Part shown: piece after piece, positions 1 through 15,208 of the stretch
Layout of the letters: the number at the start of each line of letters is the position of its first letter
Numbering within the stretch: the stretch's first letter is position 1
Origin: a virus
Reading direction: 5' to 3' (one strand)
DNA length: 26,360 nucleotides
IMG/VR virus record: IMGVR_UViG_3300025073_000157
Span: 1 to 26,360 of that record
Notes under the pieces: generated by a model
Told to the model about the DNA's origin: nothing
Databases searched by the model: none
The model's input: the letters and a program-made list of their open reading frames with translations, nothing else
Program-made: the position numbers and the translations under genes

Positions 1-548
1 AGGCCATTGGCATCGAAAGTCAGATAAGACGAAGCCCTGCTGACGGCATCGTCCAAGGCACAGGCTGCCTCTACTGTTGAACCGTCAGTAATAGGCACAC
101 GCAAAGATCGGTTTATCTGCTCCTGCAAGTCCTGTATCTGCATAGTCAGCTTATCGTAGCGGTCCTCCAGCGTTTCGGCTGGTAGTGTATCGCCCGTTAC
201 AAGATCGGTGGTTTGCGTTTGTGGGGTTGACCGGCTGATAGTCAAGGTAGAAGTGGCGGCCAGAGAACCCACCAGCGTAACCGTACCCCCTGTATATGGG
301 CTGGAGCCGGTCCCGCTAATAGTATAGTCGGTGGTCTCGGTCAGCGTAGCCTCGGCCCCCGTAGCCGTTACGCGGGTAGTAACTATCAAATCAGATGTAT
401 CAAAAAAGTCTAAAGTAATAGTGAAGGTCTGGCCGACCACACCACTACCCACAAACGGCCCATCTTTACTGTAAGCCGCGACTGTAGCCCCAGCAGTCAG
501 GGGCCAGAGTAAAAGACAGAACAAAGAGACTAGGAGTAATCTTTTCAT
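1..548 (-). CDS. Tail fibre protein, N-terminal part (cut by window edge)
   Basis: About 182 codons are present; the C-terminus lies beyond position 1. After an N-terminal hydrophobic stretch (MKRLLLVSLFCLLLWPLTAG), which looks like a Sec signal peptide, the protein has the plan of T7-type fibre N-terminal domains that attach fibres to the tail: a small beta domain (TFTITLDFFDTS, then a TDYTISG-like strand), then R-x-TP-Q-TDL, a PAE-x-LED step and a helix with LTMQIQDLQEQINRSL, the usual start of the fibre shaft. The ATG at 548 follows GGAGGT and lies one base after the stop of the tail tubular B gene, so the two are probably cotranscribed. The receptor-binding part is not in the window. The signal peptide is odd for a protein expected to assemble in the cytoplasm. 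The fibre assignment is by recognised pattern; the exported status is inference. Confidence 0.8.
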   Translation of the reverse strand, partial: MKRLLLVSLFCLLLWPLTAGATVAAYSKDGPFVGSGVVGQTFTITLDFFDTSDLIVTTRVTATGAEATLTETTDYTISGTGSSPYTGGTVTLVGSLAATSTLTISRSTPQTQTTDLVTGDTLPAETLEDRYDKLTMQIQDLQEQINRSLRVPITDGSTVEAACALDDAVSRASSYLTFDANG

Positions 549-549
549 G

Positions 550-3087
550 TCAGGCCACCTCCGCAAGTAATACCAAGGCCGTTACAGCCAAAGGCAAGGG
601 TTTATCGGAACTGATAACCAAAGTGCTTTCGGTGTCGAATCCACCAGGGAAATTCAAAGCCTTTGTGCCTGTATAAAGAGGCACAGCCGTATCCATAAGG
701 TCCGGGCCTTCCCGGAACTCGATTTCTTCCAGATGACTGGTATCTCGCCCAAATTGCGCATAGCCGGTTTTGTAGAACATGGCCGCTATATGACTGATGC
801 GTTTGGGAGAGCCCAAAGCCAATGTTCCGTAGGGCATTTTCATCGTTTCGACTATGGAAGTATAAGGCAATCCGACTTGAACGACTGAGGCAGAACGGTC
901 TAAAGTAATCTGCCCACCAGATACGACCTTGCTGGGATGCGCTCCGCCATCGGCCAAAATAGCGACTGTTTCCCCTTCCAAATGGCTCAGACCGGTAATG
1001 GTGGTTGTTGGTGTGCTGTCATAGGTCAATCCGCAATCCACGAAAAACGCATCTTCTTGATCATCGCCCCAGTCCCAGGGCATTAGTTTTTCGACATAAC
1101 GTTTGGTGACCCCATCAATAGTCCTGTTGACTACAAACCATACCTCATCTTCAGGATCGCCCGGAATAACGGCTACGGATTCATAATTCCCGGCAGTAAC
1201 ATGCTCAGCCCAACAGACTACATCTTCTTCACGCAGATAAATCAGGCTTATCAACTTGCCTTCGTTGGTAATCCCCCAAAGGATAGGCTCCGGTCGTTTC
1301 TGGAAGGCTATTTCTTTTATACCACCTTCGGTAATTTCATTGGCTAAGCGGGTCATATCTACCGCCACAAGTTGGTCTTTTTCCCAGTTATAGGCCAGTT
1401 CATTGACCTTGCGGCTGCCGCGTTCAACGAATAGATAGCCCACTGCCGTTTTGACTGGCATTAGAGATGCCGAACCTTGTATGCCCGCCTGCTGTGGATG
1501 ATTGACATTGGTTGGGGTAATTGGCTCTGTGGCGTTGCTGGCCCCCAGCGTATATTCGCCGCCTGCTGTGCCGACAATAAGCCGGCTGCCAGCGGTAAGC
1601 CATTTAATGGGGTCTTGCTGGGCTTCGGCCATAGTAAAGACAATGGCCTCATCATCATTAGGACCAGCTTGGAAGTTATGGTAATCGCCGCCAGGTAATG
1701 ATTTGCTGGCCCAAAGTGTGGCCGGTTCGTAACTGCTTCCACCAAACCATATTCTTTGCTCAAAGAAAGTAACTGCCGCTGGATAACCCCGATAATCGCT
1801 CCAAGCTCCTTCGGCCCATAAGGTTGTCAGAGAATTGCCATCCCCGAAATCTACGACTACGCGGCCTTCGACATTGTTGCTGTCTGTAACAGTTTCAATT
1901 TCCACTATGCCTGGTTTTTTGAAAGATTGCGTTACCAAGTTGTACTTACAAGTCCCTGATGTATAGGCAGTCATGTTCAGGCGATAAATAGCATCCTCGA
2001 CATCGTTCAATTCGTGGAGTTCTACATTGCCATCGGCCACATAAGAGACCTGATAAATGGTATCCCACATCGTCCCGCCATCATAGGATACTTCCAATAC
2101 CAGTGTGCCTGTCCAAGTTCCATGCGTATAAAGGTCAAGTTTCTGGTTATAAGCTACTTCAATGGTGCTGGAGGTGGTGGCGCTGGTGAATGAACCGTTG
2201 ACGGCCTGCGAAGATTGAGGAAATTTCAGTTGCCATAAGGCCCCCACATGCTCGGAATTGAACAAAGGCGCGGAAGAGCGCAACTTCAAGAGACGACCGT
2301 TGCTGCGGTCCGGCCTTACTTTGCAGGTAGGCGCTCCATCGGCAGTTACCGACTCCGAAGCTATGACAGTTATAGTGAAATCAGGGGCGACATAAGCTAC
2401 ATCGGCCACTGTGAAGTTGCGTTTATTGGCGGCGACACTTCCGCCGAAAACCCTGATGATGGAGGCCGGCTCGATATAATTGCTCAAATCGCCTTCGCCG
2501 GAGATAACAAAAGAACCGCCAGCACCAGCATTGACAGTATCAATCTCATAGGTTCTGGTCCAAATGGTTGTATCGGTGTCGTTTTCGCTTAGAAAAGGCC
2601 CATAAACAAAATTCACTTCCTCTATGGCCCAACTATTATGGTCGGTGCGGATCAATCGGCGAGGATGATAATCCGGCTGAGTGTTATACATCACGTCCCC
2701 GGTTTGAGCGAATTGCAGCAAGGCTAAGTCTGCTGAAGGATAAGGGCTGACTATGTTGGTTACGGTACTTCCGTCATCATCGAGAATAAGACCTGAAACA
2801 CCACTTACAGTCCGGAAAAACCGTATCAGCAAATCGCTGAATTCCAAGATATAAGCATCGGTATCAGAATATAGAAAAGGGATAAGGCGGGTGATATTAT
2901 CACTGTTGGGCACTTCGGCGATGTATTTGCTTCCTGGCCTTTTAAAAGCCCCACCTTGAGGCCAGACTAGAAAGTTCTGCAAAGTTTTGCAGGCGCTCTG
3001 GTATTTGGCCAAGTCTGCCCGGCCAGCCATCCTCCCGGACCACAAACCTGAGTTGAAGTTGCTTTGTATAAGAGTTTGTTTTGCCAT
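550..3087 (-). CDS. Tail tubular protein B-like / tail nozzle protein
   Basis: A protein of 845 residues from the ATG at 3087. It matches a large phage family that takes the place of T7 gp12 (tail nozzle). The N-terminus has the typical QSNFNSG...GRADLAKY...LQNFLVWPQGG...RPGSKYIAEV block (about residues 8-58), followed by RLIPFLYSD and YILEFSD. The middle has the family's GYPAAVTFFEQR-x-WFGG and ASKSLPGGDYHNF segments (about residues 435-475), then IKWLTAGSRLIVGTAGGEYTLG and ERGSRKVNEL. The start codon overlaps the upstream stop as TAATG; a TTG three codons earlier is possible but lies too close to the only purine-rich site. It sits downstream of tail tubular A and just upstream of the fibre, the normal T7-like order. 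It should form the distal tail tube through which DNA leaves. Confidence 0.85.
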   Translation of the reverse strand: MAKQTLIQSNFNSGLWSGRMAGRADLAKYQSACKTLQNFLVWPQGGAFKRPGSKYIAEVPNSDNITRLIPFLYSDTDAYILEFSDLLIRFFRTVSGVSGLILDDDGSTVTNIVSPYPSADLALLQFAQTGDVMYNTQPDYHPRRLIRTDHNSWAIEEVNFVYGPFLSENDTDTTIWTRTYEIDTVNAGAGGSFVISGEGDLSNYIEPASIIRVFGGSVAANKRNFTVADVAYVAPDFTITVIASESVTADGAPTCKVRPDRSNGRLLKLRSSAPLFNSEHVGALWQLKFPQSSQAVNGSFTSATTSSTIEVAYNQKLDLYTHGTWTGTLVLEVSYDGGTMWDTIYQVSYVADGNVELHELNDVEDAIYRLNMTAYTSGTCKYNLVTQSFKKPGIVEIETVTDSNNVEGRVVVDFGDGNSLTTLWAEGAWSDYRGYPAAVTFFEQRIWFGGSSYEPATLWASKSLPGGDYHNFQAGPNDDEAIVFTMAEAQQDPIKWLTAGSRLIVGTAGGEYTLGASNATEPITPTNVNHPQQAGIQGSASLMPVKTAVGYLFVERGSRKVNELAYNWEKDQLVAVDMTRLANEITEGGIKEIAFQKRPEPILWGITNEGKLISLIYLREEDVVCWAEHVTAGNYESVAVIPGDPEDEVWFVVNRTIDGVTKRYVEKLMPWDWGDDQEDAFFVDCGLTYDSTPTTTITGLSHLEGETVAILADGGAHPSKVVSGGQITLDRSASVVQVGLPYTSIVETMKMPYGTLALGSPKRISHIAAMFYKTGYAQFGRDTSHLEEIEFREGPDLMDTAVPLYTGTKALNFPGGFDTESTLVISSDKPLPLAVTALVLLAEVA

Positions 3088-3911
3088 TATAACCAAAATC
3101 TCTTTGTGTAAGTGATATAAAAATTGGCGAAATATAAGGTTGTATTGTGGTCTGGATTTGTTGCTCCACCACTGTCAATGGAAGAAGAAAATTCAAGTTG
3201 AACGAGATTGCCTGCGGTTAATGGAAAACCGGCCAAGCTGCCTGTTATGCCAAAAGTATTGGCATCGAAATCGCAGGAACCGACCGTATGCCTCAGAACA
3301 TTGGCCGAACCACCGCCGATGACCAAGGTAGTATTAGGAGTCCAAGTGTCGGGAGTTACCCAAGTGCCGAATCCTTCCTTCCCGGCAGAAGGTATATTGC
3401 GACGTGCCGTAACGCCTATAGTAGCTGCCGTAGCTGCCGTAGAGTTATCCACCACCACATAGGTTGAAGACAGATGCAGAGTCAAATCGGAGCCTGGTTT
3501 GTAATCGCCGGGCAAGCGGAAATTGCAATGCCAACGGTTATTGGCCGCGCCTGATCCGCCTAAAGAAGTCCCGGCATAAATCCAAGCTAAAGTTTTCCAG
3601 GAACTTAGGGCCGTTCCCCATTGAAATAAACCTACCGCAGTGCCACTATTGGCAACAACCAACCTTGCCAGCGCCACATTAGCCCCCGACTGATATTCGG
3701 TGAACATCTCCCCCAGTGGTAAATCTATGTATCCTGTCGATTCCAAAGGGATAGATACCGTTTCGGCGGCGGTCAATCCTGAAAGCTGGAATTGAGCTTG
3801 TTTGCTATTGTCGAGATTATCGTAAAGGGTAAAGAGGGCATCGTTGAACAGATTGTTCTGAAGCGTGTCCGGGCTACGTTGGATTTTTATGTTCTTGACA
3901 TCGATAATCAT
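3087..3911 (-). CDS. Unknown beta-rich virion protein between tail tubular A and B
   Basis: A protein of 274 residues rich in Thr, Ser, Gly, Ala and Asn, with alternating hydrophobic residues that suggest beta-sandwich folding. It has no signal peptide or membrane segment. I do not recognise a family. The N-terminus is MIIDVKNIKIQ and the C-terminus ends in aromatic and basic residues (YFANFYITYTKRFWL), as often seen where a virion protein docks to a partner. The start directly abuts the stop of the tail tubular A gene (TAA then ATG) with no strong ribosome binding site, and its stop overlaps the next start, which points to coupled translation within the tail operon. By position it could be a tail accessory, decoration or adaptor protein; this is inference. 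Confidence 0.7.
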   Translation of the reverse strand: MIIDVKNIKIQRSPDTLQNNLFNDALFTLYDNLDNSKQAQFQLSGLTAAETVSIPLESTGYIDLPLGEMFTEYQSGANVALARLVVANSGTAVGLFQWGTALSSWKTLAWIYAGTSLGGSGAANNRWHCNFRLPGDYKPGSDLTLHLSSTYVVVDNSTAATAATIGVTARRNIPSAGKEGFGTWVTPDTWTPNTTLVIGGGSANVLRHTVGSCDFDANTFGITGSLAGFPLTAGNLVQLEFSSSIDSGGATNPDHNTTLYFANFYITYTKRFWL

Positions 3912-4529
3912 TTAGCTGTTTCTAAAGTACGTTCTGCCATTTCTCGTATCTATACCTTGATGCCAGTAAGGTTTCCCCTTTTCATCCGGGATATAGGTTT
4001 CTTCGGCATTGGTCATCTTGGCTTTGGAGAGAACTGCCTCGTATTCCTGCAATAGCTCTAGGGATTTTTGAGCGTTTTGCGCAATGCGTCCGGCCAAGAC
4101 GCTGGCCAGTAATGTATAAATGGCCTTGACCAGCAAGAGGGGATACTTGGTTACATCGGCAACGCTTTGAATATAACGGATATGGCAATCTTCTTGGTTG
4201 GTCAGGATATAACTGCCTTCCCGTAGCCATTCGGCGTCTGGCAGGTCGTATTCATCGTGGACTACCGCCAAGATTTTCAAAAGATTGTCCGGCAGTTGAT
4301 ATTGGTAATCCCAGCCGAAGTCAGGATCGGTAGCGACTTGGGTAAGTTCCGTACGGGCAATGGCGAATTTCCAATCCACGCCGGCTTCGCACAGGACTTC
4401 ATCGCGCACCTGTTCATACCATAGTTTGCAGAGATTGGCCGTTTCGGTGGCCTCATCTATATCGCTGATGCGGTAACTGCCAAAGAGCGAAAGTGCAAAG
4501 TTACATATTTCCGTGGACGAGAGGGCCAT
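3912..4529 (-). CDS. Tail tubular protein A-like (gatekeeper / adaptor)
   Basis: A protein of 205 residues resembling T7 gp11-type tail tubular protein A, the ring between portal and nozzle. Supporting features are the N-terminal LSSTEICNFALSLFGSYRI, a helical A-x-LCKLWYEQVRDEVLCEAGVDWKFA block, Y-x-YQLPDNLLKIL, an ILTNQEDCHIRYI strand, then a long C-terminal helix (LLASVLAGRIAQNAQKSLELLQEYEAVLSKAKM). The length is near the family's usual 190-210. The ATG is preceded by AAGGAG at good spacing. Downstream are the unknown beta-rich protein and tail tubular B. The alternating helix and loop pattern and gene order make this assignment firm. Confidence 0.83.
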   Translation of the reverse strand: MALSSTEICNFALSLFGSYRISDIDEATETANLCKLWYEQVRDEVLCEAGVDWKFAIARTELTQVATDPDFGWDYQYQLPDNLLKILAVVHDEYDLPDAEWLREGSYILTNQEDCHIRYIQSVADVTKYPLLLVKAIYTLLASVLAGRIAQNAQKSLELLQEYEAVLSKAKMTNAEETYIPDEKGKPYWHQGIDTRNGRTYFRNS

Positions 4530-4547
4530 AACAAACTCCTTCTAGGA

Positions 4548-4832
4548 TTACGGTCCTTCGAGGTTCAGTTCTAATTTTATGCCTATCCTGACCAGATTGC
4601 GTTCTATTCTGGATAAGGATTCTATGGCCATATCGCTTCTGACTTTTTCTTCGGCGCACATCCGGTCCCTGGCATTTTTCCGTTCCTCGGTCTGATAGTT
4701 CATAGAAACCATTTGTTCCTGCATTTTGGTTATCTCCATCCAGTTTTTCTGCGTCCTGGTAGCTACCCATCCCGCGAAAGGAATCAGAAAGGCTAAGACG
4801 ATTCCGTATAGAAATTGCATCCATTCCGGCAT
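4548..4832 (-). CDS. Small membrane protein with coiled-coil tail
   Basis: A protein of 94 residues with one hydrophobic segment near the N-terminus (FLYGIVLAFLIPFAGWVA, about residues 7-24), then a charged, helix-prone stretch to the end (MQEQMVSMNYQTEERKNARD and on) that is likely to be a coiled coil. The ATG follows AGGAG. It lies between an 88-residue unknown protein and tail tubular A. One N-terminal anchor with a long hydrophilic helix is compatible with an inner-membrane spanin subunit or an accessory holin, but no sequence signature decides this. A more typical lysis cassette is found at 18057-19049, so this may have a different role. Confidence 0.65.
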   Translation of the reverse strand: MPEWMQFLYGIVLAFLIPFAGWVATRTQKNWMEITKMQEQMVSMNYQTEERKNARDRMCAEEKVRSDMAIESLSRIERNLVRIGIKLELNLEGP

Positions 4833-4860
4833 AGTATCATCTCCTAAGTTGAGGCCCCTG

Positions 4861-5127
4861 TTATAATGGTTTTTCTACGACTATCTGAGCATCCAAGATG
4901 GCCCGCATTTCCGCCGATGTTTTTAGTTGCAGCTTTCCTGCATCCTCGGCGTGGACTATATCTCTCATTTCTGAAGGTTTGAGGAAGCAATTCTTAAACC
5001 AGGCCCGCCCGTCTTTAAGAATCCCGGTATTAGCACCCTCGCTTAAAGATGGAGGAGTAAGACCGATAGGATATGTGCTTCCACTTTTCAAAAGCACGTA
5101 GATATTTATGTTGCTATATTCGGCCAC
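4861..5127 (-). CDS. Unknown small protein, GTG start
   Basis: A protein of 88 residues starting at a GTG (MAEYSNINIYVLLKSG). The start is chosen because AGGAG lies nine bases before it and overlaps the stop of the LamG-domain gene. The N-terminal half looks beta-structured; the second half (LKPSEMRDIVHAEDAGKLQL...EMRAILDAQ) is helical. It has no signal peptide, membrane segment or cysteine cluster. No family is recognised. Its place after the fibre-like genes suggests a small virion or assembly factor for them, but nothing in the sequence proves this. Confidence 0.6.
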   Translation of the reverse strand: MAEYSNINIYVLLKSGSTYPIGLTPPSLSEGANTGILKDGRAWFKNCFLKPSEMRDIVHAEDAGKLQLKTSAEMRAILDAQIVVEKPL

Positions 5128-5138
5128 TTTATTTTCTC

Positions 5139-6548
5139 CTACTTAAAAGGCCCTTGTGCTCGCAGGGCCAACATATCCGCTTCCGCATTGGCTATAGAAA
5201 CATTTTTAGTCCCAAATAACGCTTTGAATAATTGGCCCTGGCACGGGTTCGCACCGTCCGCAGCCATTAATTGCAATACTTTGGTAGTAGTCAGATCGTG
5301 AGCCGCGCTTCCTGTAGCTTCCTGCACACCGTCAATATAGAGATTTACCGTATTGCCGTTTCGCAGCAGAGAAAGTAAATGAGTAATTCCATCTCTGACA
5401 TCGCTTGTTCCCATGATGTCTATAGCACTATTATCAGCCACAAATTCCAGCTTTCCGACATTTGGTCCGCCTCCGGCAAAGGTTAGAAACCATTCTGCCG
5501 CTGCTCCTAATCCTTTTCCGCAGATATTCGATGCTGCCGCCACACCTACAGGGATGTTTGCCCAGACGTGAATCTGATAGGGTGCGGTTCCGAATATGAG
5601 ACTTGCAGCGTTGGCCACCTGTAAGCAATCATCCACGCCGTCAAAGAATCTATAACCTGAATTGAAACTATCCCCGCTGTTGGCCGTTCCTGCTGCATTT
5701 CGGGCATCGCCGCCGTTGGCCGCAGTAATAAGAGAATTCCAAGTCGCCCCCGTCATCGTCAAATCTCTGCCTGCCGTGCCTTCGGCATTATCAACCGTTC
5801 CATTGACATCTTCCTTGCAAAACCAGTAAGCATCCAGTCCACTAGCTGCTAACCAGGCTTGAGGGAAATCGTGGAATCTCTGGGCATCGACAATAGCCAA
5901 GGGTGTATCTACACCGCCAAATCCCAGCCATTGCAGATAGCCTTTGAAATAATAATCACCCCAAGTCGTGGCTCCGAACCTCTGGGTAGTGGGTACGTTG
6001 GCTGCAAAAGTTCCCTGGCTAACATTGCCACTGAAAGCCCCCATTGCAAAAACTGCACCATCCAACCAGACGCTGGCAACGGGAGTCCAGGGACTAGCTG
6101 CTCCCAGATCAACCATAATTAAAAGGCTATGCCAGCCGGTTTCAGGAAAAACATTCGTACTTACCGAAACCCTATCAGTATCGCCAGAAGCTCCGGCCTT
6201 GAGCCTGATTCTTAACTTATCACTAGTATCTATTAGAAATTGAAATCGGTGTTCTGCCGAACCATTCCAGTTTTCAGCATAAATAGTGCGCGTTACTTCC
6301 ACGCCTGTCGTAATGACATAAATCCAAGCAGCCGAAACAGCATATCTGCGTCCCGAAAGTGCGTCCCATAATGTGCCTGGAGTGGCAATATCTCCTGCAC
6401 CATCAAAATATAACGCCGGCACGCCGTAGATAGTCCCGTGATTGTTCTGACCGGATAGATCAAGAACAGTCCCCCTTCGTTGTTCAGGATGTCCTCGTCC
6501 GGGAAACCACAAGCCCACACAACTATCAGGTATGAATGGTCTAGGCAT
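5139..6548 (-). CDS. LamG / concanavalin A-like tail or fibre protein (two domains)
   Basis: A protein of 469 residues from the ATG at 6548, which overlaps the stop of the preceding gene as TAATG and follows AAGGAT; the reading frame stays open upstream but that part lies inside the preceding gene. Two similar jelly-roll units are visible. The first, about residues 10-210, has DLSGQNNHGTIYG, ALYFDGAGD and GWHSLLIMVDLG...VWLDG. The second, about 270-455, has RFFDGVDDCLQV, IHVWANIPVG, HLLSLLRNGNTVNLYIDGVQ and LFKALFGTKNVS. These are the D-x-SG-NNG, FDG-D and LYIDG hallmarks of LamG/laminin-G folds, which often bind sugars. In this place in a phage operon it probably decorates the capsid or tail and helps adhesion to surface glycans. 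There is no signal peptide. Confidence 0.78.
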   Translation of the reverse strand: MPRPFIPDSCVGLWFPGRGHPEQRRGTVLDLSGQNNHGTIYGVPALYFDGAGDIATPGTLWDALSGRRYAVSAAWIYVITTGVEVTRTIYAENWNGSAEHRFQFLIDTSDKLRIRLKAGASGDTDRVSVSTNVFPETGWHSLLIMVDLGAASPWTPVASVWLDGAVFAMGAFSGNVSQGTFAANVPTTQRFGATTWGDYYFKGYLQWLGFGGVDTPLAIVDAQRFHDFPQAWLAASGLDAYWFCKEDVNGTVDNAEGTAGRDLTMTGATWNSLITAANGGDARNAAGTANSGDSFNSGYRFFDGVDDCLQVANAASLIFGTAPYQIHVWANIPVGVAAASNICGKGLGAAAEWFLTFAGGGPNVGKLEFVADNSAIDIMGTSDVRDGITHLLSLLRNGNTVNLYIDGVQEATGSAAHDLTTTKVLQLMAADGANPCQGQLFKALFGTKNVSIANAEADMLALRAQGPFK

Positions 6549-7519
6549 TATTGTATCCTTGCCAGTCTTCCTGTTACGGTGGCGGCATCGGAACGATAGT
6601 GTAGCGCCGTGCCACTGGGGATGGTAATTATCTGCGTATCGCCTGCGGGGATGGTCCACAACACCGCCGAATCAGCGGCCTGCACATCGGCTACGCCCAA
6701 GTAAATAATGCCATTTACCGCAGTTACCCGATAGACTGCTGAGGACACAACTGTTGCCGAATAGTCTGTGGCCGCCAGCGTACAAGTCAGAAGCTGTCCA
6801 CTTCCCGCCACCGCTACGCCTTTGGCGACATTGCTTATGGGCAACTGAACCGTATCGTCTGTAGCAATCGTAACTGGCATAGAAGCGGCCATAGCCGCAC
6901 TTCCCACAGCGGCGGGAAGATTATCTACGGCCTCACCGATATACCGCAACTGAACCGTAACGGCCCCATCGACATCTGCTGCTCCGCCAACCGTCCCAAG
7001 TTTGGTGTCTATGCTGCCCGTATCGACATCCATGGTTGTCAAGATAGCATTGCCGGCGGTATCAACGGTATAAAGTTCACCAGTGGCATTTGTTAGCAAA
7101 GGCACATAATCGCCTGCTGCTCCGGTAGATGTTGGGGGAGTATCATCGCGGACGGCCAGAGCCATTATGCCCGCATCAGTAGAAACGTGAGCAGCATCTT
7201 CGGCTTTAATAGCCGTAGCGATAGTTGTAGAACTGGCATCGACTACCAGCAACTTGCCAGAAGTATCGATCATCAAAGGCCCGGTATCGCCGCTGGTTAC
7301 GGTATTACTCCCATAGACGCCGCCCATAAGCAGGTGCGCTGAACTATCTGAGGTCCAATCAGCGTCATCGGTATAACTGACAAAACCGATATTCTCCGAC
7401 ATATTATCGGTAGCGTTCAATTTAGTTGAAGGACCGGCCTGAGCAGGCCAAAATAGCAAACCCACCATCAAAATAAGCAAGGGGATCAGCCAGACTTTCC
7501 ATTTCCATATTGTTTGCAT
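6548..7519 (-). CDS. Secreted-type virion appendage protein with signal peptide
   Basis: A protein of 323 residues. The N-terminus MQTIWKWK, then a hydrophobic core (VWLIPLLILMVGLLFW) and PAQA is a textbook Sec signal peptide with cleavage near residue 28. The mature part is low in Lys and Arg, rich in Ala, Thr, Asp, Val, and contains GIMALAVRDDTPP and DYVPLLTNATGELYTVDT, phrases I associate with structural proteins of environmental phages. The C-terminal part (IIYLGVADVQAADSAVLWTIPAGDTQIITIPSGTALHY, read in segments) resembles a small beta domain. Its ATG follows GGAG, just after a strong stem-loop at 7538-7580. It belongs to the fibre-like group with the 814- and 469-residue proteins. Function is inferred from context. 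Confidence 0.7.
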   Translation of the reverse strand: MQTIWKWKVWLIPLLILMVGLLFWPAQAGPSTKLNATDNMSENIGFVSYTDDADWTSDSSAHLLMGGVYGSNTVTSGDTGPLMIDTSGKLLVVDASSTTIATAIKAEDAAHVSTDAGIMALAVRDDTPPTSTGAAGDYVPLLTNATGELYTVDTAGNAILTTMDVDTGSIDTKLGTVGGAADVDGAVTVQLRYIGEAVDNLPAAVGSAAMAASMPVTIATDDTVQLPISNVAKGVAVAGSGQLLTCTLAATDYSATVVSSAVYRVTAVNGIIYLGVADVQAADSAVLWTIPAGDTQIITIPSGTALHYRSDAATVTGRLARIQ

Positions 7520-7537
7520 ATTAGACTCCTATAGGTC

Positions 7538-7580
7538 GGGCCAGAGCGAGGAGAAAGGAGAAAAAACCTCGCTCCAGCCC
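7538..7580 (-). other. Strong intergenic stem-loop
   Basis: The 73-nt gap between the 814- and 323-residue genes holds two 14-nt arms (7538-7551 and 7567-7580) that pair fully on the minus-strand transcript, allowing two G-U pairs: GGGCTGGAGCGAGG with CCTCGCTCTGGCCC, loop 15 nt. The T-rich run is in the loop, not after the stem, so this is not a classical intrinsic terminator. It may stabilise or process the mRNA, or reduce read-through between two fibre genes. Confidence 0.7.
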
Positions 7581-7593
7581 AAAGAACGAAAGA

Positions 7594-10038
7594 CTATTCG
7601 GCGCCATCCGCATCGTTAACCCAAGTGCCAACCTCGGAGAGCACTATCCATTCGGTAGCGTTGACCGCCACCAGCGTAACGGACTGTTTGGCGGCATCAG
7701 TGGCACACATATAGTATTGCCCTGCCCCGCCGCCATTGATGGTATCATCGCCTGTGGCTTTGATAACCAAGTTGATATTAGCTCCAGCTTCCACATCGCA
7801 GAAGCTAAATACCAAACCAGCAGCTGCTGCGGGCAAGGTAAATATTGCTACGCCGGCATCGCCGTTATTGGTGATTACCGCGCCGCTTTGTGTGGCCTCT
7901 ATAGACTCGTCTGCTGTATAATCAGCTACTGCATAGGCGAAATTTATCAGATTGTCGCCGGATAAGCTGATACCCGCCGTGCCTGCATTGAGCGTAATTC
8001 CGCCGGCTGCATCAGAGGCTACCAATCCTATGGCATCGGCCGCAGCCTCAGCACTGTCGATAGATATGCCACCTTCAACATCGAGGACATACTCATCGCC
8101 GATGGTCGCGGTATAATCACCTGCTGCTGCTCCGGTAGCGTTTATGGCTACCGCCCCGGCGGAAGATGTCAGGGTAATGCCTCCAAGATCCGTAAGCAGA
8201 TAAATTGAGGCTGCTCCGGTTCCGGTATCGTTGAAAATTGTAATACCGGAGGACGTACTTCCATCAGCCATAATATTAATGGCATCCGCCGCATCCAAAC
8301 CGGACCATAATTCAATACTACCGGCATCGCTGAGTAATTGCACAGAAGCTGCCTTTTCAGTAGTGCTGGTTCCCTGGTCGTTATAGATGGTGATAGTACC
8401 CGTAGCGCCGCCGTCATTGGTGATATTGATGGCATTAGCTAAATTTGCTGTTGACCTCAATTCCACACCGCCGGCGGTTGACAGGATAGCTACCGAGGCA
8501 GCGCCTTCCGTAACCGATGTACCTTGATCGTTGTTGATGGTAATAGCTTCGCCGGTTCCACCACCGCCCGTGGTATCAATGGCAATAGCCGCAGCATCGT
8601 TTTCCGTGGCCCGCAAAGCCAATGAGCCACCAGAGTTGGAAATAATAATATCTTCACCAGCCTCACCAGTAGTCGTAATGTCAATGTCGGCTAAAGAAGT
8701 AATCTGTATGCCACTAGCAGCACCGGAAGTGATAACAATACCATCGTCCACAGAGGCTTCTGTAGAGGTGATATTTACCGAACTGCCCGTAGCCACGATG
8801 TCGATGTCTTCACCAGCACCGGCTCCGGCAGCGCTAATGTCAATTCCGCCTATAGTAGAGGAAATGACAATGGAAGTGGCAACCGATTCTCCGGCGGTGA
8901 TATTGACAGACCCGTTGGTGCAAGCCAAATCCAAATCTGAAGCAGCAGCGCCGTCAGCTGTGATATTAATGCCGCCAGCGGAAGCGTTCAGGACAATAGC
9001 ATCTTCTATGTCTTCGGCAGCAGTAACAGTGATTGAAGTGTTAGAAGCCAAATCTAAATCTTCTCCAGCCACAGCGCCAGCAACGGTTAGGTCCATACCA
9101 CCAGCGGAGGTAGAAACCTGCAAGGCGTCCGCGCCAGTTCCAGTAGAACTTACTACTAGACTGGCATCAAAAGCCCCGGCAACACTGATAGTCAAATCTT
9201 GGGCCGCACCTGTACTGGTTAAAGTAATACCAGAGGCCGCAGCATCGAAGGTAATATTGCCTACGCCCGTCAGGTCATCTACCGTACCCATAGCCAAGGC
9301 GTTGACGCCTAAAGTCGAACTCAGGGTAGCGGTATTGGCGTTAAGATAGACGCTCAAATCTTCGCCGCCATCGGTGAAGGTAAAGTAACCATCTGTGGCG
9401 TTAGCGATTGTGCCGCCGTTGGTCAGAGATAGACTGACAAATGTGCCCACACCAGCCTTAGTAACCGTCCAAGTGCTATCTGAGCCGAGAACATCTGCGC
9501 CCGTGCCGTTGCTGTCGAAGCTAAGCAAAGCTCCAGTTCCGGCACTGACAATAGTCTGAGCCACAGCACCAGCCGTATCCTGCTGGTCAAGAGCTAAGAC
9601 GACATTATTGGCCGCATTGGTGGCCGTCAAAGCCACAGCACCGGCATCTACCGTAATGGTTATGCCACCATCATAAGCCGTATCCAAATCAGTTATACCG
9701 GAAGCACCGGCAGTCAGGTCCACCCAAGCGCCATTGGCATAGACGTACAGATTATCATTGTCGCTATCATAATACATAACGCCTTCGGCTACTGTACTTG
9801 GGACCGCCGAACGCGGAGCGATATAGAACCACTGCACGCCCGCCGTGCCTTCGAGGTAGGTTTCGACTTCTTTTAGGAAATTGAAGCCCACATCCTTTTG
9901 GGCATTGCCGCTCCACCAATAAGAGGTGGGTTTTTGCACATCATTTACAGAGGTAGTCATGGCTGCGTATATGGGCGCTATTAAACACCCAATACCTAGT
10001 CCTATGACCACACAGAAAAGAAACTTTTTGAGACTCAT
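7594..10038 (-). CDS. Large repetitive fibre-like protein with signal peptide
   Basis: A protein of 814 residues from the ATG at 10038 (AGGAG seven bases before it). It opens with a signal peptide (MSLKKFLFCVVIGLGIGCLI then APIYAA). Residues about 75-110 have the EGVMYYDSDNDNLYVYANGAWVDL-type element that starts many phage fibres. The body is acidic and made of short beta strands with GG turns: about residues 335-470 hold three imperfect repeats of about 43 residues (D-I-VLNASAGGINITADGA, then DLDLA, then GSVNIT), and about 473-620 hold three repeats of about 50 residues (AINITNDGG, ITIYNDQGTS, AASVQLLSDAGSIEL). This suggests a long beta-solenoid shaft. The C-terminus has a FTLPAAAAG...INLVIKATGDDTINGGG module common at fibre ends. 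It is likely to be a long virion fibre, with unusual export signal. Confidence 0.8.
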   Translation of the reverse strand: MSLKKFLFCVVIGLGIGCLIAPIYAAMTTSVNDVQKPTSYWWSGNAQKDVGFNFLKEVETYLEGTAGVQWFYIAPRSAVPSTVAEGVMYYDSDNDNLYVYANGAWVDLTAGASGITDLDTAYDGGITITVDAGAVALTATNAANNVVLALDQQDTAGAVAQTIVSAGTGALLSFDSNGTGADVLGSDSTWTVTKAGVGTFVSLSLTNGGTIANATDGYFTFTDGGEDLSVYLNANTATLSSTLGVNALAMGTVDDLTGVGNITFDAAASGITLTSTGAAQDLTISVAGAFDASLVVSSTGTGADALQVSTSAGGMDLTVAGAVAGEDLDLASNTSITVTAAEDIEDAIVLNASAGGINITADGAAASDLDLACTNGSVNITAGESVATSIVISSTIGGIDISAAGAGAGEDIDIVATGSSVNITSTEASVDDGIVITSGAASGIQITSLADIDITTTGEAGEDIIISNSGGSLALRATENDAAAIAIDTTGGGGTGEAITINNDQGTSVTEGAASVAILSTAGGVELRSTANLANAINITNDGGATGTITIYNDQGTSTTEKAASVQLLSDAGSIELWSGLDAADAINIMADGSTSSGITIFNDTGTGAASIYLLTDLGGITLTSSAGAVAINATGAAAGDYTATIGDEYVLDVEGGISIDSAEAAADAIGLVASDAAGGITLNAGTAGISLSGDNLINFAYAVADYTADESIEATQSGAVITNNGDAGVAIFTLPAAAAGLVFSFCDVEAGANINLVIKATGDDTINGGGAGQYYMCATDAAKQSVTLVAVNATEWIVLSEVGTWVNDADGAE

Positions 10039-10061
10039 GTTCAAACTCCTAAAAAGAAAGA

Positions 10062-10505
10062 CTACTTCAAATTACTCAACACTTCATTGCTATTTTGATA
10101 CATTCTGTGTTTACTTAGGTAGCCAATAGCATTACTGAGTATTTCTGTGCTATCTAAACAATGGCCGAGGACCCAATTGCATTTAAGACACAGAAGACCT
10201 CGCACTTTGCCTGTTTTGTGGTCATGGTCAATACATAATCTTTTCCTCAATTCTAAATGACTTACTCCACAAATGGCACATTTCCCATTCTGTTTTCTAA
10301 ACATTTCCAAATAATCTCTTTCAACAATCCCAAGACGTCTATTCCTTCGGTGATCAATACGATTTGGGCGTTTTTTACCTCGGTTTCTTTCGTATGCAGC
10401 TTTGCATTGTTTACAATGAGACGTCCTCCCGCTTTTTCTTGTATTGTCTTTGCCAAACTCAGAAAGAGGTTTTTCTGTTTTGCATTTAGTACATATCTTT
10501 GTCAT
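10062..10505 (-). CDS. HNH endonuclease, recombination endonuclease VII type
   Basis: A protein of 147 residues. The N-terminus has a zinc knuckle (C5, C8, C31, C34) followed by a basic linker. The catalytic part has C76-x2-C79, then IDHDHKTGKVRGLLC (D93-H94-D95-H96, C106) and C109-N110, the signature of endonuclease VII/HNH enzymes that cut branched or specific DNA. Phages use such enzymes to resolve junctions, or carry them as mobile homing endonucleases. Its position alone between the cement gene and the fibre genes, set off by a stem-loop, favours a free-standing homing endonuclease inserted in the late operon. Only a weak purine-rich site (AGAG) precedes the start. Confidence 0.85.
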   Translation of the reverse strand: MTKICTKCKTEKPLSEFGKDNTRKSGRTSHCKQCKAAYERNRGKKRPNRIDHRRNRRLGIVERDYLEMFRKQNGKCAICGVSHLELRKRLCIDHDHKTGKVRGLLCLKCNWVLGHCLDSTEILSNAIGYLSKHRMYQNSNEVLSNLK

Positions 10506-10530
10506 AACTTACTCTTTGCTGTTATGGAGT

Positions 10531-10560
10531 AGGGAGATGAAAGCAAGGCAACATCTCCCT
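10531..10560 (-). other. Intergenic stem-loop after the cement gene
   Basis: Perfect 9-nt arms AGGGAGATG (10531-10539) and CATCTCCCT (10552-10560) with a 12-nt loop lie between the cement gene and the endonuclease VII gene. No T-run follows on the minus strand, so it may be an mRNA stabiliser or a weak terminator that limits expression of the endonuclease. Confidence 0.6.
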
Positions 10561-10578
10561 GCCCCAAGTTCAACTAAG

Positions 10579-10995
10579 TTAAGACGGCTCGTTCTGGAAG
10601 TTCCGCTGCGGATTGATGGGTTCCATACCCAACCAAGAATCCACATTGGCGGCACTAATGTCCGTACCGACATCCTCATACCAAACGCCGACCCAGCGAA
10701 GGACGAGTTGTAGCGGAACGCAAATACTAAAACCTGCCCCAATGGCGGTTCCTTGAGGGATATAAATTTCCGCCAGAATAGTGCCATCGTTGGCGCTGGG
10801 TTCCGTGGCTTTAGTTATCAAACTTGCCCTAACTGCTGTAGTGCCGACCACGGCGGTCGTTATCAGAATGTTCCACCAAACAAATCCAAGGTTTTTGTAG
10901 GCGGTGTTCGCAAAGTCAAGAACATTAGTGCTTATGGCACTGGCCTTGACATCCTGATTGTCAGAAAACTCCAATTTTGAATCAATCAAACTCAT
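10579..10995 (-). CDS. Bbp16-like capsid cement (decoration) protein
   Basis: A protein of 138 residues. The N-terminus SLIDSKLEFSDNQDVKASAI followed by STNVLDF matches the start of the Bbp16 family (cement protein of Bordetella phage BPP-1: IIDSQ-x-x-FSDAQAVTASAASTNVIDLG). The middle has the usual beta strands (ILITTAVVGTTAVRASLITK) and a late AEIYIPQGTAIGAGFSICVPL segment, then YEDVGTDISAANVDSWLGM. Such proteins bind the outside of the capsid and lock the subunits. The gene follows the major capsid gene by 33 nt, with GGGAGA before its ATG, as in BPP-1-like phages. The family call rests on remembered motifs. Confidence 0.75.
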   Translation of the reverse strand: MSLIDSKLEFSDNQDVKASAISTNVLDFANTAYKNLGFVWWNILITTAVVGTTAVRASLITKATEPSANDGTILAEIYIPQGTAIGAGFSICVPLQLVLRWVGVWYEDVGTDISAANVDSWLGMEPINPQRNFQNEPS

Positions 10996-11028: not shown

Positions 11029-12036
11029 CTAGGCCACTACTTCCTCAGTATTGAGGATGATGTTGTTGTCCAACCTCCTGCAAGGCACTCCGCTAAAGGT
11101 CATGATGGGCAAACCGCCAAGACCTTCAGAGGTTGACCAGTTGACATTGCTCTTGTCTTTGAGCCTGATCTGGCCTTGCGTGGCAATGGTTTTGTTCATG
11201 TAAATCCTGGTTCCTGGGCCTTCAAAATGCCCAAGATTAAGCACTTCAATCAACTTGTCCTCATCAAAGGTGTATTTGCCTGACCCGCTGGTTATGTCGA
11301 TATTGGGCACTCGTCCGATGGCCAGTTCGTCTTTGACTGCCAAGCCGACATACCACTTGAACTGGGTAACATAGGCATAGAACTTATTGTCAGAAGCATC
11401 GAGACAAGGTTCTGTACCTTTATCTACTGTGGACAAGCCAAGTTTGCCACGCTTGGCGGCGGCAGCAGGATAGATGCAATAAACCGTATTGCGGCCCCAG
11501 TTGACCACATAAATCGAGGTCAAAGTGCTGGCAGTAGTGCCTCCATTGTCAACCACGGTCGTCAGGCTGAGAGCAGCCAGTCGTTGTTGCAGACCTACGA
11601 TTTCTTCGGGGGCTACGACAGCCGAACCTTCGGTAGTTCCCCAGATAAGGGTTTTGGCAAATTCCTGGGACAAACCTTCGACAAAGGCCAAATCTTCGTT
11701 CCGCCGGAATTGAACAGGATTGGGGGCATTATCAACCAAAGCCTCGTCAATCTCGCTGCGGGCTTCCAGCAAGGCCGTAGGTTCGACCGCGACCTGCTTG
11801 CTGGCCGCTTCCTTGGCCACGCCACTGTTCACTTTGCGCCAAGTGCCATGCGGAAGGGTAGCTCGGCGGGCCACCTTTTCGGACAATATCTGGTTACATT
11901 CGTACCAGGGAATATCCTCCAGGATTCGGCCCTGATTAGCGTTCATCACCTCGGCAATGTCGATCATGCCTTTGTCTAAAATAGACTTAGACAATTCCAG
12001 AAAAGTCAGTTGTGAATTGGGATATAAAGTTGACAT
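11029..12036 (-). CDS. Major capsid protein (HK97-like fold, BPP-1 type)
   Basis: A protein of 335 residues. Recognisable parts are the N-terminal helix with IDIAEVMNANQGRILEDIPWYECNQ, then RRATLPHGTWRKVNSGV, the segment FRRNEDLAFVEGLSQEFAKT followed by LIWG, the central STLTSIYVVNWGRNTVYCIYP strand and the C-terminal GLGGLPIMTFSGVPCRRLDN, which follow the layout of the major capsid family found in BPP-1-like and P22-like podoviruses. It has no protease-cleavage domain. It sits between scaffold and cement genes. Expression should be high: a consensus-like promoter lies at 12426-12454 and a 189-nt structured leader precedes the ATG, with AGGAG eight to nine bases upstream. Length is typical for the family. 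Confidence 0.85.
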   Translation of the reverse strand: MSTLYPNSQLTFLELSKSILDKGMIDIAEVMNANQGRILEDIPWYECNQILSEKVARRATLPHGTWRKVNSGVAKEAASKQVAVEPTALLEARSEIDEALVDNAPNPVQFRRNEDLAFVEGLSQEFAKTLIWGTTEGSAVVAPEEIVGLQQRLAALSLTTVVDNGGTTASTLTSIYVVNWGRNTVYCIYPAAAAKRGKLGLSTVDKGTEPCLDASDNKFYAYVTQFKWYVGLAVKDELAIGRVPNIDITSGSGKYTFDEDKLIEVLNLGHFEGPGTRIYMNKTIATQGQIRLKDKSNVNWSTSEGLGGLPIMTFSGVPCRRLDNNIILNTEEVVA

Positions 12037-12225
12037 TTAACACACTCCTAAAAGTTGTTGAAAAACGACTCATTTAACTTTTGCGGAGGGTGTCCAGATG
12101 TCTGGGCCTGCCTGCGTTTATAGCTCGCTCAGCTCTGACCTTTATCTGTCGGTCATGCAGCCGGGTCCGTTAGGAGTGTCCGGTAGATATGATTTCATCT
12201 GGTTTCCCTTGCGGGGCAGATGGAA
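12037..12225 (-). promoter_or_regulatory. Structured untranslated leader of the capsid gene
   Basis: No gene is readable in this 189-nt gap. On the minus strand it contains GACC...GGTC and CATCTG...CAGATG pairings, an AGGAG site before the capsid ATG, and a tiny open frame of 18 codons without a good ribosome binding site. It lies between a small gene and the major capsid gene, so it acts as the capsid mRNA leader. Confidence 0.45.
12196..12222 (-). other. Stem-loop after the small gene
   Basis: CATCTG (12196-12201) pairs with CAGATG (12217-12222), and inside it CCC pairs with GGG around a short TTGC loop. It begins three bases after the stop of the 58-residue gene. No T-run follows on the minus strand, so an mRNA end or processing site for the capsid transcript is more likely than a strong terminator. 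Confidence 0.5.
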
Positions 12226-12402
12226 TTATTTATTTTTCTTCTGTTTTTCCTTATAAACACATCGGCGTTTGACACAATTTACTACGCTGCCCATTCCTCG
12301 TCGTTTTCCTTTTGAGTTTTCACATTCGCGCCAGTAGCGCTCTACGGTGCTGACATCTAAACCATGTTCCTTGGCCAATGATTTCATGAGACCCGAAGGC
12401 AT
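12226..12402 (-). CDS. Small basic phage protein upstream of the capsid gene
   Basis: A 58-residue protein reading MPSGLMKSLAKEHGLDVSTV and so on to a Lys-rich end. The start at 12402 is set by AGGAG nine bases upstream, and the gene is the first after the promoter at 12426-12454. The N-terminal LMKSLAKEHGLDVSTVERYW resembles a group of short phage proteins (LIKKLAKK-x-G-x-S-x-x-EVE-x-x-W) that are often encoded near capsid or maturation genes; I recall this pattern but cannot name a function. The helix-turn-helix-like segment and C-terminal basic run (KRRCVYKEKQKKNK) might bind nucleic acid. Confidence 0.65.
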   Translation of the reverse strand: MPSGLMKSLAKEHGLDVSTVERYWRECENSKGKRRGMGSVVNCVKRRCVYKEKQKKNK

Positions 12403-12425
12403 TAATCATCTCCTATCTTACCCAT

Positions 12426-12454
12426 ATTATACCTGTTTTTTCTGTCGATGTAAA
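12426..12454 (-). promoter_or_regulatory. Promoter for the head genes
   Basis: On the minus strand TTTACA (12454-12449) and TATAAT (12431-12426) are separated by exactly 17 nt. Five of six and six of six bases match the sigma70 consensus. Transcription would begin near 12419 and run into the 58-residue gene, the major capsid gene and the cement gene. This lets the capsid genes be expressed above the portal and scaffold genes. Confidence 0.7.
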
Positions 12455-12460
12455 GGATTA

Positions 12461-13219
12461 TTATTTCCGTCTCATGCTTGGATAATCTAACATTCCGGGT
12501 TCGCCAGTAGGCGCTGGTCCTGCCCCCGGAATGAGATTGTCTTCGGCTATTTTTTCCTTATAGACTTCGTAAAACGCTTTCAAAACGACAGGATCGTTGT
12601 CAATGCCTTTGGTCTTGAAAAGTTCCCGCAAGGCCGCTGTGCCATAAACCTCAAAGGCTTTCACTACTCCGGCCATATTTTTCTCAAAACTTGCACCCCA
12701 TTCCGTTTTCAGAGCATTGCCGGCCTTGATTACGGCTTCTTTTTGGGCTGCTTCCTCTTGTGCTTTCAGTTGAGTTTGGGTCTCTTGGTTGGCCTTGAAT
12801 AACTTTGTCTGCCAATTATTATAGAATCCTACAGCAACATCCATTTGTTCTTGATTCCAGCGAGCTTGATGAGCCACATCTTTGAATTGTTTTACGGCTT
12901 CTTCGTCCCAACCCATACCCTCCGGCAGATCCGCCGGTTTTTCAATCTTGTAATCTTCAGCTTTCGCGGGCCTGCCAAGTTTGGTATAAATAGAATCATA
13001 TTGTTTCGTTTTTTCCTCCGGCGAATCATCATCTTTCGGCAAACTGATAGACCGCCCTCGAAGTTGTTCAAGATTTACATGGCCTTTGAGGGCTTCTTCG
13101 AGCGATTCATAACGACCCAAGACCTTTATTGCGCCATCATCTAGATCGTAATCGTTGGTCCAATGGTCCTCGCTCAACTTTGCCTCGTCTAACAAGCCTG
13201 TGGTTCCTTCGTCAGCCAT
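12461..13219 (-). CDS. Capsid scaffolding protein
   Basis: A 252-residue acidic protein. It has the shape of phage scaffolds: a disordered acidic N-terminus, then YTKLGRPAKAEDYKIEKPAD followed by LPEGMGWDEEAVKQFKDVAHQ, a common scaffold block, and a long charged helix (residues about 120-170; QEQMDVAVGFYNNWQTKLFK then Gln/Glu/Ala-rich). The C-terminus ends with Arg-Lys residues (PSMRRK), the part that often binds the coat protein. AAGGAG precedes the ATG. It lies between the Bbp19-like gene and the capsid promoter, the usual place for the scaffold. It guides prohead assembly and then leaves. Confidence 0.83.
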   Translation of the reverse strand: MADEGTTGLLDEAKLSEDHWTNDYDLDDGAIKVLGRYESLEEALKGHVNLEQLRGRSISLPKDDDSPEEKTKQYDSIYTKLGRPAKAEDYKIEKPADLPEGMGWDEEAVKQFKDVAHQARWNQEQMDVAVGFYNNWQTKLFKANQETQTQLKAQEEAAQKEAVIKAGNALKTEWGASFEKNMAGVVKAFEVYGTAALRELFKTKGIDNDPVVLKAFYEVYKEKIAEDNLIPGAGPAPTGEPGMLDYPSMRRK

Positions 13220-13537: not shown

Positions 13538-15208
13538 TTACTTTCCTGCTCCTATCATGGCGGCCAGTGGAGATGTCGGGTCGGTTTTTTTCTGGATGCT
13601 AGGAATTGTCTTAGCTGCTTCCTGTAACATTTGGGCCTGCATCTGTGCTTGCTGAGCCATCATTCGCTGCTGCCTGATACCGGCGACTTCTTCATCACTC
13701 TTGATTTCTTCTTCCGGCCAAGAACCGTCTCTGGCTATGCGGGTGGCAGTTTTATCAAAGTCAAAATAATCCAATACTTGGGGAGCCACGGCAAACAGCG
13801 GTTCCAGTTGGCCGATGACTACTTGCGTGCGTCTTATCTCACGCTGCTGGCGTTGGGCGCGTTCCAGTAGGCCGTTATATTCGACTTCTATGCGTCCATT
13901 ACTCTGTTCCAGGACTATATCCGGCGGCTGGTCAATCCAGTTATTGCGCAGGGCGATGTCGAAAATCCGGTCGTGGTGGGCATTGAACAGGTCGTTATTG
14001 AGCCTGCCTATCTTGGGGGCCAGCATGATACCGCGTTCATTGGCCCGCTCTACGACTTCCGTAGCCGTAAGAGTTTTTTCCGTTCTGGCCAGCATGAGGA
14101 AGAAATCAACATTGAACCAGCGGTCGATGGCGGCGGCGGCCCGATCCTCGCGGTCGGCCCCGTAGGGGTATTTGATGTCGGTATTGATAGGCTCCGGTTT
14201 ATGTTCCGGCCTGTGGCCCCAAGTGAATCCGCCAGGACCGATATGTACCTTGCCTCTCATTTCAGCATGGGCATACATGGGCGGCTCTACAGAGAGATGG
14301 CCAGCCCGGAGCATGACTTCGGTTATGGAGTTTATGCCAAATATATCCACCAAGGCAAAGCAACCTAAGCCTACGCCATAGACACTGCCGGGGCTTTTGG
14401 CAAACCGCCAATAACTAAAGGGTTTGGAAAAGTAACCGGCGATCCGCAGAGGTCTCTGCTTGTCTTCCGGGACTTCTTCCTGAATATAAACACTTATCCA
14501 TTCTCGGTCGGGCAAGTCTGTAATCCCGGCGAATATGCGGTCGGAGCGTTTATGGCAGACGTGTATGAATTTGAATCTTTTCAGCGGGTCTTTTTCTATG
14601 GCCTTTTGCAGAGGTTCGCTGAGTAATTCTTTATCGAAAGATTCGCCGGCATTACGCGCACTAAGTGGGTAATACCGATAGAAGGTGTCCACATTACTGC
14701 CGGAGTCTTCATCGACATAAATTTCGCGGGGATGAAAATTAAAACAAGCCAGACCGTTGCCTTGGGCATTTTCCTCTATCCAACTTGGGGCGTCGCCTAT
14801 GCTGCCGGCATCACGGAAGATAGGTCCAAGATGGGAATAATAGTTACTGTTTCTCATCAGGCCGTAGATGACTTCTTCCACACCCTGGAGCCATTTGCGG
14901 ACTTGAACATTCTTGTCCAGCTTCTTATTGCCCATGCGGTAGATGAACCAGTCGAGACTGGAAGAAACCAGGTGTCCTTGCATACCGTCGGCCCAATTTT
15001 CCAGGGCTTCCTGGGGGGCGGCATTGAAAACGGTCAGATTGGGCTTTTTGCCTTGGTCGGATATTTCCGTATCGTCCCATAAAGACAAATCAGGGCGGAG
15101 AAGTTGAATTACTTCGCGGCGAAGATTTTCCCAAGGTTTGCGGACATCCTGCATGGCCGAGAATCTGGCTGAAAGCCGTTTATAAAGATTGTTTTCGGAT
15201 TCCGGCAT
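13538..15208 (-). CDS. Portal protein (head-to-tail connector, podovirus type)
   Basis: A 556-residue protein of the head-to-tail connecting family that forms the dodecameric portal. Key parts: N-terminal LYKRLSARFSAMQDVRKPWE and L-RREVIQLLRPD, the FNAAPQEALENWADGMQGHLV segment (residues about 60-80; the family's LAS-x-x-x-G-x-TSP-x-x-PWF region, here LVSSSLDWF), the FRDAGSIGDAPSWIEE turn, HPREIYVDEDSGSNVDTFYR, and YFSKPFSYWRFAKSPGSVYG then VGLGCFALVDI. The C-terminus is Gln, Met-rich (QQRMMAQQAQMQAQMLQEAAK in pieces). GGGAG precedes the ATG and the end overlaps tightly with the Bbp19-like gene. Length fits the family (about 520-560). Confidence 0.88.
   Translation of the reverse strand: MPESENNLYKRLSARFSAMQDVRKPWENLRREVIQLLRPDLSLWDDTEISDQGKKPNLTVFNAAPQEALENWADGMQGHLVSSSLDWFIYRMGNKKLDKNVQVRKWLQGVEEVIYGLMRNSNYYSHLGPIFRDAGSIGDAPSWIEENAQGNGLACFNFHPREIYVDEDSGSNVDTFYRYYPLSARNAGESFDKELLSEPLQKAIEKDPLKRFKFIHVCHKRSDRIFAGITDLPDREWISVYIQEEVPEDKQRPLRIAGYFSKPFSYWRFAKSPGSVYGVGLGCFALVDIFGINSITEVMLRAGHLSVEPPMYAHAEMRGKVHIGPGGFTWGHRPEHKPEPINTDIKYPYGADREDRAAAAIDRWFNVDFFLMLARTEKTLTATEVVERANERGIMLAPKIGRLNNDLFNAHHDRIFDIALRNNWIDQPPDIVLEQSNGRIEVEYNGLLERAQRQQREIRRTQVVIGQLEPLFAVAPQVLDYFDFDKTATRIARDGSWPEEEIKSDEEVAGIRQQRMMAQQAQMQAQMLQEAAKTIPSIQKKTDPTSPLAAMIGAGK

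Follow-up and report, generated by a model that had tools for sequence, protein, structure and literature searches.

Predicted Sec signal peptides on the tail fibre of an uncultured podovirus, and on nozzles of its relatives: a possible case of tail parts joining outside the cytoplasm

What are export signals doing on the tail fibre of a phage, when the textbook picture has tailed phages built entirely in the cytoplasm? The question is raised by a 26.4-kb IMG/VR virus fragment from an uncultured podovirus, hereafter the window (the whole stretch of DNA analysed, 26,360 nucleotides). A host search of genome contigs returned a single remote alphaproteobacterial MAG locus. The window phage has a GP7-type capsid related to those of BPP-1 and epsilon15, with its major capsid gene (11029..12036, minus strand) matching PF20911 (E 4.8e-70), 3j4u (3e-42) and 3j40 (3e-36). 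Also on the minus strand are the genes for the portal, or head-tail connector (13538..15208; PF12236, E 1.2e-88), the tail adaptor, or tail tubular A (3912..4529; phrog_394, E 4e-47, and phrog_9239, ‘tail tubular protein’), and the tail nozzle, or tail tubular B (550..3087; phrog_376, E 2.4e-194; 8ck1_A, Tail Nozzle, E 1.5e-87). None of these proteins carries a signal peptide. Genes for an 814-residue fibre-like, beta-repeat-like protein (7594..10038, minus) and a 323-residue protein (6548..7519, minus) lie between the capsid and tail genes. The tail fibre gene (3..548, minus) follows the nozzle gene and runs past the window edge, leaving the N-terminal 182 residues.

Several other features of this region were recorded. 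An endonuclease VII/HNH-like gene (10062-10505, minus; PF02945, 8e-24) is located between the genes of a 138-residue protein and of the 814-residue protein. A stretch of ~600 bp that contains it (10055-10654) is missing from the otherwise near-identical contig IMGVR 3300009285_002072 (G003), and the endonuclease gene thus behaves like a mobile insertion. At its position 3831, G003 also lacks 566 bp corresponding to window positions 11972-12537, i.e. the 5' end of the capsid gene. The in-frame stop in the G003 capsid gene is the product of this deletion joining at the 5' end of the gene, and recoding was rejected. Adjoining the 323-residue gene, a gene at 5139-6548 (minus) codes for a 469-residue protein with Laminin_G_3/concanavalin-like domains (3.5e-13) and no signal peptide. 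The 94-residue protein encoded at 4548-4832 (minus) combines a single hydrophobic helix at its N-terminus with a charged tail and might be a lysis (holin/spanin-like) protein.

The three minus-strand proteins starting at positions 548, 7519 and 10038 have the n-h-c organization of N-termini handled by Sec and signal peptidase I (SPI), preceded by ribosome-binding (SD) sites. The 814-residue protein begins with MSLKKFLFCVVIGLGIGCLIAPIYA^AMTTSV (predicted signal peptide, residues 1-25, 9964..10038, minus; cleavage IYA^AMT; SD AGGAG) and the 323-residue protein with MQTIWKWKVWLIPLLILMVGLLFWPAQA^GPST (residues 1-28, 7436..7519, minus; AQA^GPS; SD AGGAG). The fibre begins with MKRLLLVSLFCLLLWPLTAGA^TVAAYSK (residues 1-21, 486..548, minus; AGA^TVA; SD GGAGG). 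In an AF2 model of the 323-residue protein, residues 4-23 form a helix. All three proteins have a positively charged n-region, an uncharged hydrophobic h-region and small residues at -3/-1 according to a rule-based test of our own, used here in place of SignalP for all signal-peptide calls. The description in the initial annotation of basic residues, a hydrophobic core and a plausible cleavage site on all three N-termini was thus borne out by sequence inspection together with the SD sites.

The rule passes 12 of 6236 internal Met windows (about 0.2% false passes) and 8 of the 531 called starts of ORFs of at least 250 residues, several of these eight belonging to the same signal-bearing group. 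Among five E. coli control proteins, three scored above the cut, MalE below it, and PhoA was missed; given this imperfect sensitivity, our signal-peptide counts are lower bounds. The probability of at least three passes among ~27-30 genes is about 2e-5 at the internal-window rate and 0.008 at the called-start rate, making a chance origin of the three signal peptides unlikely. Near the three starts, no other in-frame ATG, GTG or TTG has an SD; only the first start does, so that the hydrophobic segments do not result from start codons called too far upstream, and mis-called starts were rejected. The production of two forms, one exported and one cytoplasmic from an internal start, was likewise rejected, as no internal ATG has an SD. 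An ATG is found at or beside the cleavage site in the 814-residue protein and in two related fibres described below, and none is present there in the window fibre or in a related signal-bearing nozzle (G001, below). All three proteins are found at 100% identity in the independent contig IMGVR 3300025117_000280, and the 814-residue protein also recurs at 100% identity in G003. By every available sequence test, then, the three Sec signal peptides are real, and they are predicted to be cleavable.

The case is strongest for the fibre, whose signal peptide is joined to a recognizable docking domain. The fibre matches phrog_1640 (E 6.7e-26) and, by profile, the fibre of 8ck1/28lx (3e-41), with profile positions 1-129 corresponding to residues 1-130 of the Carin-1 fibre chain. 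The AF2 model has a beta domain with a pLDDT of about 95 (ten-residue blocks, 88-98), its first 20 residues not being confident. With this model, Foldseek returned the Carin-1 fibre (8ck1_B) as top match, followed by other podovirus tail complexes including that of T7 (7ey9). No match of the window fibre to Pfam Phage_T7_tail was obtained. The domain initially annotated as a T7-type fibre N-terminus is thus of the fibre type, its closer counterpart being the Carin-1 fibre and not T7 gp17. The rest of the fibre gene is found in the near-identical contig L004, whose fibre ends in a Gp53-like_C tip (E 4e-15) and is 94% identical to that of the sister contig L002 over the 210 residues that they share.

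Residues 30-153 of the window fibre match phage fibre families with a shift of about 20 positions, which is accounted for by signal-peptide-less homologues starting at the predicted mature residue. In an alignment with 30 relatives, 28 of which have no signal peptide, the latter mostly begin with MTVSS or MTISS, exactly at the predicted cleavage site that leaves TVAAY in the window fibre. All but two homologue lineages begin at the docking domain, whereas the window fibre has 21 residues ahead of it. The profile offset equals the length of the signal peptide in the signal-bearing fibres (window residue 34 on profile position 14; residue 35 on 13 in the related fibre of L122) and is absent from the signal-less fibre of L127 (residue 10 on 11). 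In the Carin-1 tail (8ck1), the docked fibre domain likewise begins at the position equivalent to this predicted mature start. Homologues that start downstream of the hydrophobic stretch, which the initial annotation had regarded as an argument against an export signal, do technically exist. Nevertheless, as they begin at the predicted mature residue, they speak for a cleavable export signal and not for a wrongly placed start. Since the window fibre gene has no downstream start at all, they point to the gain of an export signal rather than to mis-annotation.

The 814- and 323-residue proteins are less readily classified. Neither has a Pfam match or a significant PHROG match, and the 814-residue protein has no relative in the phage collection. 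A 40-residue motif of the 323-residue protein (residues about 183-222) is common to structural-type proteins of the phages L018-L023, which are devoid of signal peptides. The AF2 model of this protein was poor (single-sequence, mean pLDDT 40.8), and only its N-terminal helix was used. Based on gene position, beta-repeat-like composition and small motifs, it is plausible that both proteins are virion parts. A C-terminal module common to the signal-bearing 814-residue, L153 and L127 proteins was suspected by eye and was unsupported by BLASTP. Antisense to the 814-residue gene is an open frame of 272 codons (8531-9349, plus), most likely a by-product of repetitive codon use.

Two related contigs, 3300005323_000363 (L006, L121 and G001 in our set) and 3300005323_000090 (L122), carry signals on the fibre and on the nozzle. 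Their fibres have different signal peptides before the same docking domain, MKNRVFKSITGFLALCLFIPTFAFA^MVADNY in L006 and MKNIFRLFLGVLAVCMIARAACA^MVADNY in L122; these are the fibres with an ATG at or beside the cleavage site. Of these signals, that of the L122 fibre is the weakest: it contains an Arg in the c-region near its end and fails our rule. The same fibre has only a sub-threshold match to Phage_T7_tail. The nozzles of G001 and L122 also begin with signal peptides, which end exactly where signal-less nozzles begin (‘M-AK’). That of L122 is homologous to the solved Carin-1 nozzle 8ck1_A (E 1.4e-35) and matches phrog_376 (3e-108). G001 has a single nozzle gene, and the L122 stretch likewise contains no further copy. 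The nozzle of contig L124 is 77% identical to that of G001, and neither it nor the L124 fibre has a signal peptide. Between G001 and L122, 9 of the 21 signal-peptide codons of the nozzle are identical, 7 differ synonymously and 5 are replaced, compared with 249 synonymous and 70 replacement differences over the 680 codons of the mature part. The nozzle signal peptide thus changes in sequence faster than the mature part and keeps its signal character. As G001 and L122 are close relatives, the pairing of signals on nozzle and fibre counts as one evolutionary event. A reverse transcriptase gene (RVT_1, 1.6e-21), possibly part of a diversity-generating element, is present in the G001 contig at 27489-28571 (11690-12772, minus, in L114 numbering).

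We then surveyed all homologues with complete 5' ends in the fetched loci with the same rule. No capsid (48 examined), portal (45), terminase (33), adaptor (64) or internal virion protein (32) had a signal-peptide-like start, compared with 2 of 72 nozzles and 3 of 102 fibres (those of the window, its sister contig and G001). Thus, within this survey the signals are confined to late-joining or external parts. They are rare, with two fibre lineages and one nozzle lineage among the homologues, indicating that the tail machine in general does not need them.

Within the structural region of other podovirus contigs, additional signal-bearing proteins are encoded that are fibre-like or of unknown type, and not all of them need be virion parts. 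G005 has one of 609 residues encoded after the capsid gene. L127 and L132 have proteins of 200-207 residues that are 73% identical overall with diverged signal peptides, and a viral scan with this family returned only those two contigs. L127 also codes for a 452-residue fibre-like protein with a match to a virion-structural family, and L164 for a 443-residue protein whose C-terminal half matches Synechococcus-phage tail fibres. In L159, five consecutive genes with signal-peptide-like starts, one with the fibre motif SPQLGGDLSLNGKNLD, are found upstream of the portal gene (1467-4648, plus). Three consecutive signal-bearing genes (565, 142 and 352 residues) similarly lie ahead of the portal gene in L147 (260-3447, plus). 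Noted separately, a 114-residue signal-bearing protein of L144 (21285-21629, plus) has a decoration-like ‘VVTTAGTAVALGTNQSVDIITICAETNNTGTI’ stretch.

How might these observations fit together? P22 spikes have long been known to be able to attach to completed heads outside the cell. T7 adds its adaptor once the DNA is packaged, then the nozzle and finally the fibres, and the portal, when closed, can retain the DNA (PMC6702177). In our set, the bona fide tail parts that bear signal peptides are the last added (window) or the last two (G001 and L122). Relatives that export both nozzle and fibre would fit late joining, as these are the last two pieces of a T7-type tail. The chances appear about even that the window fibre, and probably also the 814- and 323-residue proteins, are exported, trimmed and docked late to heads made in the cytoplasm. 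DNA-filled heads with portal and adaptor would form in the cytoplasm as usual, while the fibre and probably the other two proteins would be exported to the periplasm. Signal peptidase I would trim the fibre, leaving an ordinary Carin-1/T7-type docking N-terminus, and the exported last-joining or outermost parts would attach once lysis opens the inner membrane, or would do so across it. A wider version, proposed somewhat more tentatively, is that of a two-compartment virion in which packaged heads, portal and adaptor are made in the cytoplasm, Sec-exported nozzle, fibres and surface appendages gather in the periplasm, and the two sets join once the inner membrane opens or later. The predicted signals on both nozzle and fibre of G001 and L122 favour such joining outside the cytoplasm. 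That the nozzle of the window phage has no signal peptide counts against late joining as an explanation. We infer from the sequences that the proteins are exported, cleaved and, once mature, present in virions, and likewise when and where they join. If true, part of the tail would be built outside the cytoplasm and join late, and this lag would by itself leave the particle free of receptor-binding fibres until it is released. Late joining predicts that only last-added or outermost parts may be exported, which held across the homologues surveyed here.

The main rival is that the exported proteins are not meant for the virion and act in the envelope. In the periplasm or at the cell surface they could bind the phage's own receptor or glycan, block re-infection or shield progeny from debris, in the manner of T5 Llp, or they could be secreted adhesins. 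Known exported phage proteins such as SAR endolysins and Lom do work in the envelope, the Gp53-like_C tip of the fibre is a binding module, and many of the extra signal-bearing proteins of L127, L132, L147 and L159 are products of accessory genes for which no virion role is required. However, a receptor blocker needs no nozzle, and in G001 and L122 the signal is on this essential channel part, of which no second copy was found. Moreover, the signal-bearing fibres keep a complete docking domain whose exact start is restored by the predicted cut, and no second, signal-less fibre with the same docking domain was found in the partial stretches examined. We consider action in the envelope unlikely.

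Alternatively, the segment may stay uncleaved as a hydrophobic helix at the N-terminus, where it would lodge in the virion or would anchor the tail to the inner membrane while the particle is assembled or extruded. The predicted hydrophobic helix 4-23 of the 323-residue protein would suit this, and cleavage is in all cases a prediction. Nevertheless, small -3/-1 motifs are present at the predicted cleavage sites (AGA, AQA, IYA and AFA), the signal peptides diverge in sequence with their character conserved, and the predicted cut agrees exactly with the N-terminus of signal-less homologues. In addition, the fibre domain docked in 8ck1 has no such segment ahead of it, as profile position 1 falls on chain residue 1. 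We regard an uncleaved helix as improbable.

There is a similarly small chance that the signals serve to hold the proteins co-translationally at the inner membrane, with the virion assembled across or at it, for example with release without full lysis, instead of after lysis. Signals on the nozzle and fibre of the same phages, with none on the adaptor, would draw the line precisely between adaptor and nozzle. Nevertheless, such a particle would need to get through the membrane, and no export channel or extrusion gene (pI/pIV-like) was recognized in passing. Lastly, an artefact of sequencing, assembly or gene calling is very improbable even though all the contigs are from uncultured sources, as the window proteins are identical in independent contigs, different contigs have different signal peptides, SD sites are present and the nozzle signal peptide has a coding-like substitution pattern.

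The closest known tail is that of Carin-1 (PDB 8ck1: Tail Nozzle and Tail fibers Dpo36), homologous to that of the window phage in both nozzle and fibre docking domain (E-values above). The major capsid proteins are also related (8cjz), but the Carin-1 fibre chain begins at the docking domain without a signal peptide. The GP7-capsid podoviruses BPP-1 and epsilon15 share the major capsid (PF20911; 3j4u, 3j40) and nozzle families with the window phage; in contrast with the signal-bearing phages, the surveyed capsid, portal, adaptor and nozzle relatives of this group are devoid of signal peptides. T7 gp11-gp12-gp17 offers the same series of portal, adaptor, nozzle and fibre, with the same inferred order of addition (PMC6702177), whereas the T7-type fibres and nozzles surveyed have no signal peptides and the window fibre does not match Phage_T7_tail. 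According to a study of phage diversity-generating elements (DGRs), the phage target proteins lack the signal peptides of the bacterial, surface-displayed ones (PMC6199706). Our search of the open-access literature turned up no account of signal peptides on the fibres or nozzles of tailed phages, nor of outermost virion parts that are exported and join the particle outside the cytoplasm.

Among tailed-phage proteins, SAR endolysins and Lom use host Sec export, as the window proteins are predicted to do. T5 Llp is an exported phage lipoprotein that also depends on host Sec. Unlike the window fibre, these are lysis or envelope proteins and not virion tail parts. The filamentous phage coat proteins pIII and pVIII are virion proteins with cleavable signal peptides, joined at the membrane. 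The use of host secretion by filamentous phages is described in PMC4823517. Nevertheless, they belong to an unrelated class of viruses, whereas here the predicted signals are on the nozzle and fibre of tailed dsDNA phages.
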